From Deltaproteobacteria bacterium (GTDB taxonomy: Bacteria > Desulfobacterota > Desulfobacteria > Desulfobacterales > Desulfobacteraceae): a DNA stretch of 47,163 nt. The notes under the pieces were generated by a model. It was not told where the DNA came from, searched no databases, and worked only from the letters and a program-made list of their open reading frames with translations. The stretch covers positions 1 to 47,163 of the forward strand of contig JAQIBP010000052.1 of the NCBI GenBank assembly GCA_027858995.1, given 5' to 3'. Numbering within the stretch: the first letter of the stretch is position 1; each line of letters starts with the position of its first letter. The translations under genes and the position numbers were made by a program. Below are positions 19,751-28,304 of this stretch, in pieces.

Positions 19751-20021
19751 TATACAAATCAAACTTGTTATTACCGGCAGAGTCCAGGGAGTCTTTTTCA
19801 GGGCTGAGACAAAAAAAACAGCAGACAGACTTGGCATAAACGGATATGTTAAAAACCTCTCTGATGGATCTGTTGAAGCGGTTATAAAAGGAGATCAAGT
19901 AAGTATTTCCCAAATGATAGAGTGGTGCCGCAAAGGGCCGGCAATCTCAAAAGTCCAATCTGTAAAGACGGAAGAGATCAGCAGTGTTTCAAATTTCAAC
20001 ACATTCGAAGTTATCTACTAA
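19740..20021 (+). CDS. acyP: Acylphosphatase
   Basis: This is a 93-residue enzyme that hydrolyses acyl phosphates such as acetyl phosphate or carbamoyl phosphate. The family motif GRVQGVFFRAETKKTA carries the phosphate-binding arginine, and the catalytic asparagine is in GYVKNLSDGSVE. The start ATG at 19740 overlaps the dinB 3' end by 11 bases and has AAGGGAG upstream. It is the last clear gene of the motA-motB-dinB-acyP unit. Confidence 0.93.
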   Translation: MTANIQIKLVITGRVQGVFFRAETKKTADRLGINGYVKNLSDGSVEAVIKGDQVSISQMIEWCRKGPAISKVQSVKTEEISSVSNFNTFEVIY

Positions 20022-20034
20022 AAAGGAGACAAAT

Positions 20035-20289
20035 ATGCCTATTCCCGGGAATCTTGTAACAACTGCCATGGCAGTGATGCCCCATACAGATGTTGCTCAG
20101 GCCCTTGAAGCTGCATTAAGTCTTGATGTACCTTACTGGCCCCAGCTTCCTAATTTCAGTTATTATGAAGACATGTATGTCCAGGCAGGGGAACATTTTC
20201 CCGGTATTGTTCCAACCGGTATGGAATCATTTGAAAAAGAGAATTTTGATCTTTCCTATATTTTAAGGGAACAATATAAGTTGATTTAA
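20035..20289 (+). CDS. Short METE/UROD-like ORF, apparently internally deleted
   Basis: This 84-residue ORF has an excellent ribosome site (AAAAGGAG, ATG at 20035); upstream in-frame ATG 19984 lies inside acyP and was rejected. Its first 58 residues (IPGNLVTTAMAVMPHTD, PYWPQLPNFSYYEDMY, GEHFPGI) look like the N-terminus of the cobalamin-independent methionine-synthase-like (METE/UROD) proteins of anaerobes, which are normally 330-400 residues. The rest (VPTGMESFEKE, then ILREQYKLI) resembles parts from near the far C-terminus of the same family. The barrel in between is missing. This reads as in-frame internal deletion or a pseudogene; I judge this from remembered family character, not an alignment. 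Confidence 0.55.
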   Translation: MPIPGNLVTTAMAVMPHTDVAQALEAALSLDVPYWPQLPNFSYYEDMYVQAGEHFPGIVPTGMESFEKENFDLSYILREQYKLI

Positions 20290-20296
20290 TCTTTTT

Positions 20297-20917
20297 CTAT
20301 TTTTTCTTTAAAGCTACCTTTAAAGCAGCTGTATGAATCTCGGCTGCAACATGAACCGGGCTTTTCCCCCACAAAGGATCCCAGGAGGCTGGGTCGGCTG
20401 TACAAAAAAACTGGACTTCAAGACCAAATCTTGTCAATACCTCTTTAATTGGCATATTTTTTATTTTTTTTGCGGCATTCCATGTAGCACCGCATGGTGC
20501 ACCTCTTAATACTTTGATTTCAGTGACTATATCCTTATCAATACTAATTTGAATATCAGGTGCACCAAAAATTCTATCATAATCCCCAAGGCAGCCCTGC
20601 CTTGAAAGAGTACATCATGTTGGTGAACAGATAGCCTGTCCTGTTGTTATTTTTTTCCCTGAAGCAATAACAGGAATATTTAATTTTTCACACAAAGAGC
20701 TTAAATCATCGGAAAGGTCCTGATGTTTCAAAAAATCAAGAACAATGTCTGCATCAATTATTTTGGGTAAATAATCTGATGTGTCATCAAGTACAGGGGG
20801 CAAAGGTTCATCAATATCAAAAGTTTTGATTAAAAATTGTTTTTCTCCGAATTTATTGATACCTTCTATTTTACTTTTTCCAGACCCATTTTGCTGGAAA
20901 ACCATGATTTTCTGCAT
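20297..20917 (-). CDS. DUF166-family protein with in-frame TGA: candidate selenoprotein
   Basis: The frame starts at ATG 20917 and would stop at TGA 20615-20617 after 100 codons, but the same frame continues for 105 codons of clean coding sequence to TAG at 20297-20299. The joined 206-residue protein reads PTUCTLSRQGCLGDYD across the TGA (U101). Downstream segments FGAPDIQ and LRGAPCGATW are hallmarks of DUF166, a family once linked to thymidylate synthesis but without proven function. Cys102, Cys109 and Cys142 are present, so U101 would sit next to a Cys at a probable redox or metal site. A stem-loop placed like a bacterial SECIS follows the TGA. It begins four bases after the LUD-domain gene stop and is coupled to it. 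Confidence 0.8.
20587..20604 (-). promoter_or_regulatory. Candidate bacterial SECIS element
   Basis: On the minus strand CAAGGCA pairs with TGCCTTG around the apical loop GGGC. The loop begins 17 bases after the in-frame TGA at 20615-20617. Known bacterial SECIS elements need a stem-loop at about this distance with a G in the first two loop bases; the E. coli fdhF element has GCAGGTCTGC at its tip, and this one has GCAGGGCTGC. Confidence 0.75.
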
Positions 20918-20920
20918 ATA

Positions 20921-21574
20921 TTAGAATCCTAAATCTTCGTTAACAAGAATAATATTTATCCTCTCCTTAATAAAACTTTTTTCTGTAATTGTCCAATAGT
21001 TGCAGATTCTGTCAGGACTGCTGCAGTCTTGACAGGTTCCGGTCTTGACACAGGGAGTCTTCTTATCAAGATTCATGGTATTTACAACAGCAGCATAATT
21101 TTTAATTCTCAGCATGGCCTCTTCAAGATCTTCACATATTTTATTTCTGCCAATTATCAACAGTACATTTTTAGGTCCCCACATAATCGCAGCAACTCTG
21201 TTTCCCACCATATCAAGGTTGACGAGTTGGCCGTCCTGGGTTACTGCATTGGTGCCTGTAACAAAAAGATCAACCATTAAAGACTGTCTTCTAAGCTCCA
21301 GCATCTGTTCAGGTGTTAGTTTTTGATTAAATGTATTTAAAACTTCAAGGTCTGGATTATCTTTGAGTTCATGGAAAAGACCCGTTGCAACAAAAGACAT
21401 GGAGCCACCCCAGGAAACAGTTTTAATATCAAGTTTGGAAATTATATCCTTTAACGCAATATCTTTGGCCGTTTTTGCATCCGGGGCAATAAAAACATTA
21501 AACCTGTTTTTTTCAAGGTTTTCTTTTACTGCTTCAAGTTTAAGCTTCCAATAATTATCAATGGGGTTTTTCAT
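20921..21574 (-). CDS. LUD-domain protein (LutC/YkgG-like)
   Basis: This 217-residue protein is of the LUD (formerly DUF162) family. Diagnostic segments are VSWGGSMSFVATG, the LFVTGTNAVTQDGQLVNLDMVGNRVAA core and the C-terminal CQDCSSPDRICNYW cysteine segment of the stand-alone LUD group. LutC members help oxidise lactate in the LutABC complex; stand-alone versions like this one are common in anaerobes and have no settled role. The start ATG at 21574 has GAGGAGA upstream. It is followed by the DUF166 candidate selenoprotein gene, so the two are probably expressed together. Confidence 0.88.
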   Translation of the reverse strand: MKNPIDNYWKLKLEAVKENLEKNRFNVFIAPDAKTAKDIALKDIISKLDIKTVSWGGSMSFVATGLFHELKDNPDLEVLNTFNQKLTPEQMLELRRQSLMVDLFVTGTNAVTQDGQLVNLDMVGNRVAAIMWGPKNVLLIIGRNKICEDLEEAMLRIKNYAAVVNTMNLDKKTPCVKTGTCQDCSSPDRICNYWTITEKSFIKERINIILVNEDLGF

Positions 21575-21865: not shown

Positions 21866-23641
21866 TTAATGATCAACTGCTTTGCCAGAGCCTTTTGGAA
21901 CACGGATATCTTCAATCAGATCCTGAATTCTTTGAGGAACTGGGGCAGTCATACCCGAAACTATATATGCAACTATAAAGTTGATACATGCGCCGACAAA
22001 ACCAAATGCCTGTGGTTTAATTCCAAACAGGTGGTTGGCTTCAATATCTGCAAGCATTCTTGTTTCAGGAAAGAAAAACCAGCCTTTATATATAAAGATA
22101 TAAAGAAGGGTTGATCCAAGACCAGCCAGCATGCCTGCTACAGCACCTCTATTGTTAATTTTCTTGGAAAAGATACCCATCATGATTGCAGGGAATATGG
22201 AAGCTGCTGCAAGACCAAATGCAAGTGCAACAACCTGGGCTGCAAATCCCGGAGGATTCATCCCGAGATAACCTGCTATAATGATGGCTCCGGCTATGGC
22301 AATACGGGAGTACATCAACTCCTGCTTATCATTAATATTCGGCATTAACCAGCCCTTTAAAACATCATGGGAAACTGCAGTTGCAATTGCAAGCAGAAGA
22401 CCTGCAGCAGTTGAGAGAGCAGCTGCAATACCACCTGCTGTAACAAGTGCTATAACCCAGTTGGGAAGCCCTGCAATTTCAGGATTGGCAAGAACCATTA
22501 TATCCCTGTCAACCTTGATCATTTCATTACCTTTCCAGCCAAAGGATGCGGCTTTGTCTCCCATTCCTTTTTCATCATAGTACTGGATTCTGCCGTCACC
22601 ATTTTTGTCTTCAAATATTAATAGCTTGGTCTCTTCCCAGCTTTTAAACCATTCTGGCCTGTCAGCATACTTGAGGTTTCCTGTGGGTGAGCCAACTTCG
22701 CCTATTTGAATTGTATCCATCAAATTCATACGAGCCATGGCGCCGACTGCAGGAGCAGTTGTATAAAGAAGTGCAATAAAAACAAGTGCCCAGCCTGCAG
22801 ATGCACGGGCATCCTTAACCTTTGGCACTGTAAAGAAACGCATGATAACATGGGGAAGTCCAGCAGTACCGATCATCAGCGACATTGTCAAAAAGAGCAT
22901 ATTTGTCGTCGACATCTTCTGGGCCGTGTATTCCGCAAACCCGAGATCCACCAGAATAGTATCAAGTTTGGCAAGAAGATGTACTCCGCTGCCATCTGCC
23001 ATTGTACTTCCAAGACCAAACTGTGGAATAGGCATGCCGGTTAACTGCAGAGCAATAAATACTGCAGGAACAGTATAGGCAAAAATAAGAACACAATATT
23101 GGGCAATCTGTGTATTGGTAACACCCTTCATACCGCCGAAGACCGCATAGATAAAAACAATTATCATACCAATGACAATCCCCGTTTTAAAGTCGACGTG
23201 AAGAGAGCGGGAAAATACAACCCCGATTCCTTTCATCTGGCCGATAACATAAGTTATGGATGCAGTAACAAGACAAAGCACTGCAACCATTCTTGCAGTT
23301 AAAGAGTAGTATCTCTCACCAATAAATTCTGAAACTGTAAATTTTCCAAATTTTCTTAGATAAGGTGCGAGCAGCATGGCAAGAAGGCAGTAACCGCCTG
23401 TCCAGCCCATTAAATAGACAGATGCATCATAACCGAGAAATGCGATAAGACCTGCCATGGAGATAAAAGAAGCTGCTGACATCCAGTCAGCACCGGTAGC
23501 CATACCATTTAAAACAGGATGGACACCTTTGCTGGCCACATAAAAGTCACTGGTATCTTTTGCCGTTGATTTTATGGCAATGTAAATATAAAGAGCAAAA
23601 GTTGCTCCAACTACTAAGTACGTCATAACTGTTAAACTCAT
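21866..23641 (-). CDS. Sodium:solute symporter, VC_2705/ActP-like (acetate permease)
   Basis: This 591-residue inner-membrane transporter of the SSS family has about 13 hydrophobic segments and the SSS core ATGADWMSAASFISMAGLI. Members next to a DUF4212 subunit form the VC_2705 group and are usually linked to acetate or other short-chain acid uptake. An insert of about 80 residues before TM8 is soluble and contains DKNGDGRIQYYD, which fits a calcium-binding EF-hand loop. The start ATG at 23641 has AAGGAGGG upstream. It follows the DUF4212 gene with a 15-base gap, and the divergent acetyl-CoA synthetase supports an acetate role. Confidence 0.9.
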   Translation of the reverse strand: MSLTVMTYLVVGATFALYIYIAIKSTAKDTSDFYVASKGVHPVLNGMATGADWMSAASFISMAGLIAFLGYDASVYLMGWTGGYCLLAMLLAPYLRKFGKFTVSEFIGERYYSLTARMVAVLCLVTASITYVIGQMKGIGVVFSRSLHVDFKTGIVIGMIIVFIYAVFGGMKGVTNTQIAQYCVLIFAYTVPAVFIALQLTGMPIPQFGLGSTMADGSGVHLLAKLDTILVDLGFAEYTAQKMSTTNMLFLTMSLMIGTAGLPHVIMRFFTVPKVKDARASAGWALVFIALLYTTAPAVGAMARMNLMDTIQIGEVGSPTGNLKYADRPEWFKSWEETKLLIFEDKNGDGRIQYYDEKGMGDKAASFGWKGNEMIKVDRDIMVLANPEIAGLPNWVIALVTAGGIAAALSTAAGLLLAIATAVSHDVLKGWLMPNINDKQELMYSRIAIAGAIIIAGYLGMNPPGFAAQVVALAFGLAAASIFPAIMMGIFSKKINNRGAVAGMLAGLGSTLLYIFIYKGWFFFPETRMLADIEANHLFGIKPQAFGFVGACINFIVAYIVSGMTAPVPQRIQDLIEDIRVPKGSGKAVDH

Positions 23642-23656
23642 TGCAACCCTCCTTTA

Positions 23657-23914
23657 TTAATCTTCTTCAACGTCAAATTCTTTATCCAGATTCCCAATCA
23701 GCTTGGAATATACAAAAATCAATGCCACAAAGACATACATCGATCCCTGCTGGGCAAACCAGAATCCTAATTTATACCCTCCGATACTGATAGCATTGAG
23801 AGGATGAACAAGGATAATCCCAAAACCAAAAGAAACCACAAACCAAATAACCATACAGATGGTTATGAGTTTAACGTTTCTTCGCCAATACTCTTTTCTT
23901 GAGTTGTCACTCAT
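23657..23914 (-). CDS. DUF4212 small symporter subunit
   Basis: This is an 85-residue membrane protein with two hydrophobic helices (near residues 14-36 and 46-70) and the family pattern YWRRNVKLI, FGFGIILVHPLN and GFWFAQQGSMYVFV. DUF4212 proteins sit immediately upstream of VC_2705-type sodium:solute symporters and probably act as a partner subunit. The start is ATG at 23914 with a short AGGAGG-like ribosome site. It is the first gene of the transporter transcript. Confidence 0.9.
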   Translation of the reverse strand: MSDNSRKEYWRRNVKLITICMVIWFVVSFGFGIILVHPLNAISIGGYKLGFWFAQQGSMYVFVALIFVYSKLIGNLDKEFDVEED

Positions 23915-24257: not shown

Positions 24258-26288
24258 ATGAGCCAAAAAGAAGTAATGGAAACCACAGAAGCCCAAATTG
24301 CAGTCCATTGGAAAGAAGAAGATTATTACTATCCCTCTTCAAAATTTGTTGGTCAGGCCAATCTTACAGATCCAGCGGTCTTTGATCGATTCAGTCTGGA
24401 TAACTTTCCGGATTATTACACTGAGTATGCTGAACTGCTTACATGGTACAAGTACTGGGATGAAGTTCTCGATACCAGTGACGCTCCATGTTACAAATGG
24501 TTTAAAGGCGGAAAGCTCAATGCCAGTTATAATTGTATTGACCGTCATTTGAAAGACAATAAAAACAAAACTGCCATCCATTTTGTTCCTGAACTTGAAG
24601 AAGAGAAGGTCGAACATATCACTTACCAGGAGCTTTACGTAAGGGTTAATGAATTTGCAGCATTGTTACGCGATACTGCAAAACTCAAAAGAGGGGACAG
24701 AGTCACCATCCATATGCCCATGTCAGCAGAGCTTCCCATTACCATGCTTGCCTGTGCAAGACTGGGCGTTATTCATTCTGTTGTTTTTGGAGGATTCTCA
24801 CCCAGTGCAAGTGCAGACAGAATTGTTGATTCCCAGTCCAGGGTTTTAATCGTTACAGATGCTTATTACAGGGCAGGCAAACTTTTGAATCATAAATTTA
24901 ATGCTGATGAGGCAGTTAAAATTGCAGCAGAACAGGGGCAAACAGTTGATACAGTTCTTGTATGGCAGAGATATTCGAGTAAATACTCTTCTGATACCCC
25001 AATGGTTGAAGGAAGAGATATTTGTGTAAATGAAAAATTAAAAGATTATTATGGCGCCAGGGTTGAACCTGAAGAGATGTTGAGTGAAGATCCTCTTTTT
25101 TTGATGTACACCAGCGGCACTACAGGTAAACCAAAAGGCTGTCAGCACAGCACAGGCGGTTATCTTGCATATACAGCTGCCATGTCCAAATATATTCAGG
25201 ACATTCACCCTGAAGACGTTTACTGGTGTATGGCAGATATTGGATGGATCACAGGTCATTCCTTTATTGTTTACGGCCCTCTTGCTCTTTGTGCTTCCTC
25301 AGTAATCTATGAAGGAGTACCCACATATCCCGATGCAGGAAGATCCTGGAGAATTGCCCAGGAACTTGATGTCAACATTTTCCATACTGCACCTACTGCC
25401 ATCAGGGCTTTAAGGAAACTCGGACCTGATGAACCTGCCAAATATAACTACCATTTTAAACACATGACAACCGTTGGTGAGCCCATCGAACCTGCTGTAT
25501 GGAAATGGTATGAATCAGCAGTTGGCAAGGGAGAAGCCATTATTGTTGATACATACTGGCAGACAGAAACCGGTGGATTCCTCTGCAGTACCGTGCCAGG
25601 GATCAAACCCATGAAACCAGGCAGTGCTGGTCCCGGAGTTCCCGGCATCCACCCGATTATCTATGATGATGAAGGCAAAAAAGTCGCCCAACCTGGTATT
25701 GCAGGTAATATCTGTATACAGAATCCCTGGCCCGGAATGTTTCAAACCATCTGGGGCGACAGGGACAGGTTTGTTGATACTTATTTTGCAATGTATAATA
25801 CAAAACCTGACAGTAAAGACTGGAGAGACTGGCCATATCTGACCGGTGATGCTGCTACCATGTCTGAAGACGGCTACTACAGGATCCTTGGCAGGATTGA
25901 TGATGTTATCAATGTATCCGGTCACAGACTTGGAACAAAAGAGATTGAATCTGCATCCATGGTAGTGGACGAGGTTGCAGAAGCAGCAGTTGTACCTGTT
26001 GCCCATGATATTAAAGGAAAAGAGCCTGATCTTTATATATCTCTTAAACCAGGCATTGAGGCAACTGATGAACTTGCACAAAAAATATCTGATGCCATTT
26101 GTGAACAGATAGGTAAAATTGCCAAACCAAGAAAAGTATGGCTGGTTCCGGATATGCCTAAAACAAGATCCGGTAAAATCATGAGAAGGGTTCTTGGGGC
26201 AATCTCCAATAAAGGTGATGTGGGTAATGTTATGACACTTGCAAATCCTGAGATTGTGGAAGAAATTAAAACTATGGTTGATAAATAA
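24258..26288 (+). CDS. acs: Acetyl-CoA synthetase (AMP-forming)
   Basis: This enzyme converts acetate, ATP and CoA into acetyl-CoA through acetyl-AMP. The 676 residues have the ACS N-terminal domain, the P-loop-like YTSGTTGKPKGCQH, the acyl pocket and motif DTYWQTETGGF, the hinge GRIDDVINVSGHR and the C-terminal KTRSGKIMRR with the lysine that is acetylated in many bacteria. The usual WWQTE reads YWQTE here. The start ATG at 24258 has AAAAGGAG. It is divergent from the acetate symporter and followed by prpE, so it belongs to a short-chain acid uptake and activation module. Confidence 0.94.
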   Translation: MSQKEVMETTEAQIAVHWKEEDYYYPSSKFVGQANLTDPAVFDRFSLDNFPDYYTEYAELLTWYKYWDEVLDTSDAPCYKWFKGGKLNASYNCIDRHLKDNKNKTAIHFVPELEEEKVEHITYQELYVRVNEFAALLRDTAKLKRGDRVTIHMPMSAELPITMLACARLGVIHSVVFGGFSPSASADRIVDSQSRVLIVTDAYYRAGKLLNHKFNADEAVKIAAEQGQTVDTVLVWQRYSSKYSSDTPMVEGRDICVNEKLKDYYGARVEPEEMLSEDPLFLMYTSGTTGKPKGCQHSTGGYLAYTAAMSKYIQDIHPEDVYWCMADIGWITGHSFIVYGPLALCASSVIYEGVPTYPDAGRSWRIAQELDVNIFHTAPTAIRALRKLGPDEPAKYNYHFKHMTTVGEPIEPAVWKWYESAVGKGEAIIVDTYWQTETGGFLCSTVPGIKPMKPGSAGPGVPGIHPIIYDDEGKKVAQPGIAGNICIQNPWPGMFQTIWGDRDRFVDTYFAMYNTKPDSKDWRDWPYLTGDAATMSEDGYYRILGRIDDVINVSGHRLGTKEIESASMVVDEVAEAAVVPVAHDIKGKEPDLYISLKPGIEATDELAQKISDAICEQIGKIAKPRKVWLVPDMPKTRSGKIMRRVLGAISNKGDVGNVMTLANPEIVEEIKTMVDK

Positions 26289-26402: not shown

Positions 26403-28304
26403 ATGTCCAATTTGTATGATAAAGCCTATGAGCAATCCATTAATGATCCTGATGGATTCTGGGGAGATATAGCAAAAGAGTGTCACTGGTATAAAAAATG
26501 GGATAAAGTTCTTGATGATTCCAATAAGCCTTTTTACAGATGGTTTACAGGCGCTGAGACAAACACATGTTATAATGCTGTTGATCTGCATGTTGACAAT
26601 GGTATAGGAGATCAGGATGCCATAATCTATGACAGCCCTGTAACCGATACCATTAAAAAATACACCTATTCTGAACTTAAAGAGATCGTTTCAAAATTTG
26701 CCGGTGTCCTTAAATCAAAAGGAGTAGAAAAAGGTGACAGAGTTGTTATCTATATGCCCATGATCCCGGAAGCTGTGTTTGCCATGCTTTCCTGTGCAAG
26801 GTTAGGTGCTGTTCACTCTGTGGTTTTTGGCGGATTTGCCGCCAATGAGCTTGCCACCCGTATCGATGATGCAAAACCCAAGGTTATTGTCTCGGCATCA
26901 TGCGGTATTGAAGTAAAAAAAATCATTAAATACAAACCCCTTCTTGATGAAGCCATTGATCTTTCCACTTTTAAACCAGATGCCTGTATTCTTTTCCAAA
27001 GACCCCAAGCCGAGGCTGGCATGATAGAAGGCAGAGATTTTGACTGGAATGATGAAATGGAAAAAGCAGTACCTCAAGATTGCGTTCCGGTAAAAGCTAC
27101 TGATCCTCTATATATACTCTATACCTCCGGCACAACAGGACAACCCAAGGGAGTTGTTAGGGACAACGGCGGACACATGGTAGCTTTAAAATGGACAATG
27201 GGTGCCATTTATGGTGTTAATCAGGGAGATGTCTACTGGGCGGCTTCTGACATAGGCTGGGTTGTAGGCCATTCATATATAGTTTACGGCCCTCTTTTTA
27301 AGGGGTGTACAACTATCATTTTTGAAGGCAAACCAGTTGGAACTCCTGATGCTTCAGTTTTCTGGAGAATTATTTCACAGCATAAGATAAGCACTCTTTT
27401 TACTGCTCCCACAGCATTTAGAGCAATTAAAAGAGAAGATCCCCAGGCTAAACTGATGGAAGATTTTGATCTTTCCAGCTTTAAATATCTATTCCTTGCA
27501 GGGGAAAGACTTGATCCTGATACTTTAACATGGGCTGAAAACTGCTTAAAAATACCTGTAATTGATCACTGGTGGCAGACAGAGACCGGCTGGGCAATTG
27601 CTGCAAATTGTGTCGGGCTTCATTCATTTGACATTAAACCAGGATCTCCCACAAAAGCTGCTCCAGGCTGGAACATGGCTGTTCTTGGCGATGATGGGAA
27701 TCCCATTAAGCCAGGAGATATTGGAGCCATTGTTGCAAAACTGCCTCTGCCTCCTGGCACACTGCCCACACTCTGGCAGAATGATGAGCGCTTTAAGGAT
27801 GCTTATCTCAATGAATTCCCTGGCTATTATGAAACTGCTGATGCAGGATTTATTGATGAAGACGGATATATTTTTGTCATGGCAAGAACCGATGACATTA
27901 TCAATGTTGCCGGTCACAGGCTTTCCACAGGTGCCATGGAAGAAGTCATTGCTGCACACCCGGATGTTGCAGAGTGTGCTGTCATGGGAGTCGCTGACCA
28001 GCTCAAAGGCCAGATTCCCCTTGGCATGATGGTTTTAAATGCTGGAGTAGATAGAGATCATGATGAAATTGTTAAAGAAGTTATTCTGCAGATGAGAAAT
28101 AAAATAGGCCCTGTTGCTGCCTTTAAAACAGCTGTAGTAGTAAAACGGCTTCCTAAAACAAGATCCGGCAAAATTCTGCGTGGTACAATGCAATCCATAG
28201 CAGATAAAAAAGATTATAAAGTACCGGCTACCATTGATGATTACTCTATCCTTGATGAGATTAAAGAGTCTTTGGGAACAATTGGCTATGGCAGCAAAGC
28301 TTAA
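26403..28304 (+). CDS. prpE: Propionyl-CoA synthetase (PrpE-like AMP-forming ligase)
   Basis: This 633-residue AMP-forming acyl-CoA synthetase activates propionate (and probably acetate). It carries YTSGTTGQPKGVVRDNGGH, GERLDPDTLTWAE and HWWQTETGW, a combination typical of PrpE/ACSS3 rather than Acs, plus the hinge ARTDDIINVAGHR and the C-terminal KTRSGKILRG lysine. The start ATG at 26403 has GGAGG eight bases upstream. It is on the same strand as acs. The neighbouring sensor and nucleotidyltransferase-like genes suggest joint control. Confidence 0.88.
   Translation: MSNLYDKAYEQSINDPDGFWGDIAKECHWYKKWDKVLDDSNKPFYRWFTGAETNTCYNAVDLHVDNGIGDQDAIIYDSPVTDTIKKYTYSELKEIVSKFAGVLKSKGVEKGDRVVIYMPMIPEAVFAMLSCARLGAVHSVVFGGFAANELATRIDDAKPKVIVSASCGIEVKKIIKYKPLLDEAIDLSTFKPDACILFQRPQAEAGMIEGRDFDWNDEMEKAVPQDCVPVKATDPLYILYTSGTTGQPKGVVRDNGGHMVALKWTMGAIYGVNQGDVYWAASDIGWVVGHSYIVYGPLFKGCTTIIFEGKPVGTPDASVFWRIISQHKISTLFTAPTAFRAIKREDPQAKLMEDFDLSSFKYLFLAGERLDPDTLTWAENCLKIPVIDHWWQTETGWAIAANCVGLHSFDIKPGSPTKAAPGWNMAVLGDDGNPIKPGDIGAIVAKLPLPPGTLPTLWQNDERFKDAYLNEFPGYYETADAGFIDEDGYIFVMARTDDIINVAGHRLSTGAMEEVIAAHPDVAECAVMGVADQLKGQIPLGMMVLNAGVDRDHDEIVKEVILQMRNKIGPVAAFKTAVVVKRLPKTRSGKILRGTMQSIADKKDYKVPATIDDYSILDEIKESLGTIGYGSKA

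Follow-up and report, generated by a model that had tools for sequence, protein, structure and literature searches.

A probable selenocysteine form of the DUF166 family, DfsP, and a possible tie of the family to CODH/ACS

The window (the whole stretch of DNA analysed, 47,163 nucleotides) encodes a DUF166-family protein whose gene, dfsP, carries an in-frame TGA at codon 101. We conclude that UGA101 is very probably recoded to selenocysteine (Sec), in which case the locus encodes DfsP, the Sec form of DUF166. This reading, which a preliminary description of the DNA had put forward, is supported by a covarying SECIS-like hairpin, by the exchange of Sec and Cys at column 101 of the protein alignment and by the Sec machinery encoded in the genome. 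What looks new is the genomic evidence that ties the wider DUF166 family to the CO dehydrogenase/acetyl-CoA synthase complex (CODH/ACS). How the nickel clusters of this carbon-fixing machinery are put together is understood only in part. The evidence gives a handle on the function of DUF166, pointing to CODH/ACS. Judging from the nearest relatives of the DfsP protein, the host appears to be a Desulfobacula-like sulfate reducer. The features of the locus are collected in Table 1.

Table 1. Coordinates of dfsP, its recoding elements and neighbouring genes in the window
Feature	Position	Strand	Remarks
dfsP, DUF166-family selenoprotein gene (predicted)	20297..20917	minus	206 codons and stop, TGA probably read as Sec101
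TGA codon 101 (probable Sec)	20615..20617	minus	only Sec or Cys across 52 aligned rows
SECIS-like hairpin	20584..20607	minus	10-bp stem TTTCAAGGCA/TGCCTTGGGG (G-U pairs counted), loop GGGC; covariation
LUD-domain protein gene	20921..21574	minus	directly upstream of dfsP, 3-nt gap
Sodium:solute symporter (SSF)	21866..23641	minus	upstream of LUD gene, context
DUF4212 gene	23657..23914	minus	beside symporter, context
Acetyl-CoA synthetase-type AMP-binding enzyme	24258..26288	plus	context
Second acetyl-CoA synthetase-type AMP-binding enzyme	26403..28304	plus	context

With the TGA translated as U, dfsP encodes MQKIMVFQQ...SPTUCTL...FGAPDIQ...LRGAPCGATW...KKK, a protein of 206 residues that ends at a stop codon. 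The translation of the minus strand, a strand that the preliminary description does not name, bears out the earlier observation of a single TGA, at codon 101, with 105 codons beyond it that hold FGAPDIQ and LRGAPCGATW. There is no open frame on the plus strand of 20297-20917, which is full of stops. The Pfam DUF166 profile spans the TGA without a break, scoring 131 bits in the genome search and 135.5 bits with the window protein. The latter is above the Pfam cut-off, and DUF166 is its sole Pfam match. The NCBIfam model NF041372, ‘DUF166 family (seleno)protein DfsP’, aligns with 329 bits over 203/203 profile positions (cut-off 200). The likeness to this model is thus full-length, and no sequence difference from it was found.

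DUF166 is not new as a selenoprotein family, because NF041372 models DfsP and two reviews list DUF166. It stands among the prokaryotic selenoprotein families in a table of the first (PMC9312934) and appears under NF041372 in the selenoprotein list of the second, which names Nucleic Acids Res 35:4952-4963 as its source (PMC13188914). The label ‘candidate new selenoprotein’ in the preliminary description is therefore not supported; the family is already known and the window protein is an ordinary member. The CODH/ACS association described below is absent from the DUF166 entries of these reviews (PMC9312934, PMC13188914). In Pfam, DUF166 is still labelled a ‘domain of unknown function’.

Homologs were expected to have Cys where the window protein has U101. 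Indeed, column 101 of a 52-row DfsP alignment, in which the window and L029 are one gene, contains Sec in 38 rows, Cys in 14 and no other residue. Apart from the window and its copy, 36 of 50 rows share TGA101, so a sequencing error at this codon, which the preliminary description had named as a concern, can be excluded for practical purposes.

The GGGC loop of the dfsP hairpin starts 17 nt past the TGA. This stem-loop had been noted before and is present, with a stem that reaches 10 bp when G-U pairs are counted. In the bacterial SECIS model, a hairpin lies close downstream of the UGA and has a G at the start of its loop. GGTC is presumably the loop of the E. coli fdhF SECIS, and we take the tip of the dfsP hairpin to be one base away from the fdhF tip. 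The first two loop positions are G in all 37 Sec loci compared, and the loop is GGTC in 26 of them and GGGC in four. By a simple stem search, a stem of at least 6 bp occurs in 31/37 Sec loci versus 3/14 Cys loci (L024, L060 and L064); the remaining 6/37 Sec loci have none of this length. Folding energies compared with synonymous codon shuffles gave a mean z of -1.77 for Sec loci and -0.61 for Cys loci (Mann-Whitney p 5e-4).

For covariation, the 37 Sec loci (36 distinct ones) were aligned as DNA. Base pairs are formed in 81.7% of the cells of a 7-bp helix, compared with 75.1% in shuffles and 67.5% in the best slid register. With kinship partly remaining in these tests, the covariation score of the hairpin is 0.236 versus 0.114 in shuffles, and 0 of 500 shuffles scored as high. 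Both sides have changed in four of the seven helix pairs. Of the five measures used, the count of further pair types does not exceed that in shuffles (8 versus 7.9, 316/500 as high). A typed SECIS-like pattern had no match in the window's own genome; it is too strict to mean anything, because the window hairpin itself goes unmatched.

The genome that contains the window (G000, 97.1% complete) encodes selA (601 bits), selB (350 bits), selD (366 bits) and a tRNA-Sec (75.6 bits), each above its curated cut-off. All the Sec machinery looked for was thus found. UGA101 would be read as selenocysteine through SelB and tRNA-Sec together with the hairpin just downstream. Of the 58 genomes with DfsP, 57 have a tRNA-Sec above the gathering score, and the single miss (G367) has the Cys form. 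In G168, G338, G205 and G346 the best tRNA-Sec match does not go beyond about 50 bits and is doubtful; the first two carry Sec forms and are incomplete genomes. The selD gene of G000 (L019, G000:C151:10190-11116) has one in-frame TGA of its own, so the selenophosphate synthetase of this genome is probably a selenoprotein too.

If UGA101 were a true stop or an error, the open reading frame would end after codon 100 and leave a 100-residue fragment, which is highly improbable given the recurrence of TGA101 in other rows, the retention of C142, C172 and H189 downstream, the covarying hairpin and the Sec machinery.

A larger alignment of 89 rows combines DfsP with distant DUF166 proteins (PF02593). 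C102, C142, C172 and H189 are invariant in 89/89 rows, and the distant members thus have these four residues in common with the window protein. C76, C102, C142 and C172 are invariant in the 52-row DfsP alignment, and in the larger one Cys occupies column 76 in 64/71 DfsP rows and 0/18 distant rows. Column 101 contains 37 Sec and 34 Cys in the 71 DfsP rows (with one gene counted twice, as L051 and L091). The distant members, by contrast, have Phe or Leu at this column (18/18) and form a separate clade. In the 89-protein tree, the distribution of Sec and Cys needs six parsimony changes among the DfsP rows, and the starred branches force two. A redox or metal site at Sec101 is plausible, because Sec101 adjoins C102, one of the three Cys that are invariant in the 89 rows.

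A sequence search of solved structures returned no convincing homolog, only eight chains of the designed-ankyrin type with E-values of 0.037 or worse. The predicted DfsP structure has a mean pLDDT of 78.3 and an N-terminal half that is Rossmann-like in look, whereas the C-terminal part predicted alone is of low confidence (pLDDT 62.4). Since Foldseek found nothing at E 0.001 or better with the predicted structure and VIA-align recovered common arrangements only (best Z 8.3, residues 1-118), we draw no function from it.

The family was surveyed in 395 genomes of the phylum. NF041372 matches in 84, of which 58 are above cut-off, and Pfam DUF166 is above cut-off in 82. A single Pfam DUF166 match per genome is the rule among these 82. 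The one exception is G132, where only one of two dfsP genes (C1:2217402-2218007 and C1:1460845-1461453) contains an in-frame TGA. No survey genome was seen to carry the DfsP form alongside the distant one.

CODH/ACS-system genes lie within 8 kb of DUF166 in 13 of 22 distant loci. In the seven loci of family f18, the order is cdhA-DUF166-cdhB-cdhC, and in L105 DUF166 and cdhA overlap by 4 bases. In the six loci of family f38, the gene immediately before DUF166 encodes a CooC-type ATPase. Genes for RACo, CdhD/E-family and CdhC proteins are found further upstream in five of them (L106, L108, L111, L119 and L120), while the sixth, L125 of G363, has CooC and RACo only, on a 3.4-kb contig. The two families differ in gene order and fall into separate clades of the 89-protein tree. 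No CODH/ACS neighbours were found in the other 9/22 distant loci. Two of these nine, G350 and G010, are fragments that do not reach the Pfam cut-off, and the one in G350 could be part of a DfsP-type gene. DUF166 lies away from CODH/ACS genes in five loci of family f21 (L107 and L121-L124), L107 being one of the nine.

DfsP-type genes themselves are rarely beside CODH/ACS genes, which is the main weakness of a CODH/ACS role. Such genes were found near only three of 60 DfsP-type loci (L066-L068, all Desulfobulbaceae), although contig ends shorten many of the stretches compared. In these three, dfsP is 2-6 kb from acsE-, cooC- and CFeSP-type genes. There are none within 8 kb of dfsP in the window. 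L066 also has a DUF3786 gene (L066:3542-4207) beside Wood-Ljungdahl genes that is possibly another accessory gene.

ACS-beta (PF19436) is encoded in 255 of the 395 genomes, including that of the window (E 4.8e-120). It is present in 75/82 genomes with DUF166 versus 180/313 others (Fisher 9e-10, with kinship ignored and within one phylum). By genus the figures are 50/54 versus 112/192 (p 6e-7, kinship again ignored), and with the wider DUF166 list 77/84 genomes have ACS-beta. Shared ancestry may inflate this co-occurrence. Five of the seven DUF166 genomes without ACS-beta carry a CdhD-family (CFeSP) gene above cut-off. The other two, G168 and G363, have only weak CdhD-family matches of a kind also seen in two control genomes; in G363, DUF166 is the gene by CooC and RACo mentioned above. 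DUF166 is not essential, since 180/255 genomes with ACS have no DUF166 above cut-off. Among 14 control genomes, DUF166 matches occur in three (B. subtilis and two methanogens), above cut-off in two, and ACS matches in the two methanogens only.

We take COG1810 to be DUF166 and, to our knowledge, Methanosphaera stadtmanae is without any CODH/ACS. COG1810 (MMP0976) and the CODH epsilon subunit (MMP0984) are tabled as present in all methanogens and Archaeoglobus fulgidus, and both are marked absent from Methanosphaera stadtmanae, in the table of PMC1852104, which gives an independent hint of the association. A link between DUF166 and CODH/ACS was not found in the literature searched, including the available parts of PMC1852104, PMC13056359 and PMC6006190.

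We give a little less than an even chance to the proposal that DUF166 assists CODH/ACS of the Wood-Ljungdahl pathway as an accessory factor for metal or redox handling. The Cys3-His set C102/C142/C172/H189 would be compatible with a metal or Fe-S centre, and we infer that these residues could hold a metal ion or an Fe-S cluster. Possible tasks include the delivery of nickel or a cluster to CODH/ACS, the repair of CODH/ACS or the reduction of its corrinoid protein. Sec101, which is Cys in some lineages, may contribute a selenol able to reduce the C102/C142/C172/H189 site or to serve as a transient ligand there. Lying beside C102, it could in this way alter the redox behaviour of the site or its ligation. 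The CODH maturation factors CooC, CooJ and CooT are likewise accessory genes in CODH operons, as described in part of PMC6006190, and their likeness to DUF166 is one of analogy only. In several loci the gene adjoining DUF166 encodes a CooC-type ATPase, but CooC is an ATPase according to the same part of that source (PMC6006190), whereas the window protein matches DUF166 alone in Pfam.

More tentatively, we speculate that DUF166 of methanogens and sulfate reducers could be an unrecognised CODH/ACS maturation or activation factor with a Cys3-His metal site, and DfsP its selenium-upgraded version. If true, the Wood-Ljungdahl pathway would have a further selenium-dependent step besides its selenium-containing formate dehydrogenase. 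The switch between Sec and Cys beside an invariant Cys furthermore represents a built-in probe of DUF166 chemistry.

Two other roles are conceivable, and we consider both unlikely. The first is that DfsP is a selenoprotein that works with the LUD-domain protein in acetate/lactate metabolism, in redox or Fe-S handling, and not with CODH/ACS. The LUD-domain gene is directly upstream of dfsP in 15/15 Desulfobacula-type loci (the window and L052-L065), and the two genes are probably one transcript. The symporter with its DUF4212 gene and the two acetyl-CoA synthetase-type genes of the window would also suit such a metabolism. The LUD gene cluster is confined to these 15 of the 62 loci compared, though, and the invariant residues of DfsP are common to relatives that are embedded in CODH/ACS gene clusters, which argues against a role specific to the LUD protein.

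The second, about as improbable, is that DUF166 is a general redox or Fe-S assembly protein with no dedicated partner, and that its link to CODH/ACS reflects an anaerobic life style and shared ancestry. In L107 of family f21, DUF166 has a SufBD-core gene on one side, and its neighbour on the other side matches the FMN reductase and low-molecular-weight phosphatase families; the former neighbour would be consistent with such a function. The neighbourhoods of dfsP are otherwise little conserved (62 loci compared), and the co-occurrence statistics, as noted, disregard kinship. A generalist is nevertheless harder to reconcile with the placement of DUF166 inside CODH/ACS clusters in both f18 and f38, in different orders and separate clades, or with the CdhD-family genes in most of the DUF166 genomes that are without ACS-beta.

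Other neighbours of DfsP-type genes recur in a few loci. A FolE2/MptA-like divergent GTP cyclohydrolase gene is directly upstream of Cys-form DfsP in L092, L095 and L100, and it touches DfsP in L092 and L100. The L092 copy is below the NCBIfam equivalog cut-offs, and the L095 and L100 copies were placed by clustering. This gene and the Fe-ADH neighbours of some Cys-form loci were dropped as functional clues, each being found in three loci only. On the plus strand of the window, a 101-residue frame at 19984-20289 is kin to a protein of 340-341 residues that is convergent to dfsP in L053, L057 and L061. The long relative in L053 has no Pfam match, and the 101-residue frame looks like a shortened remnant.
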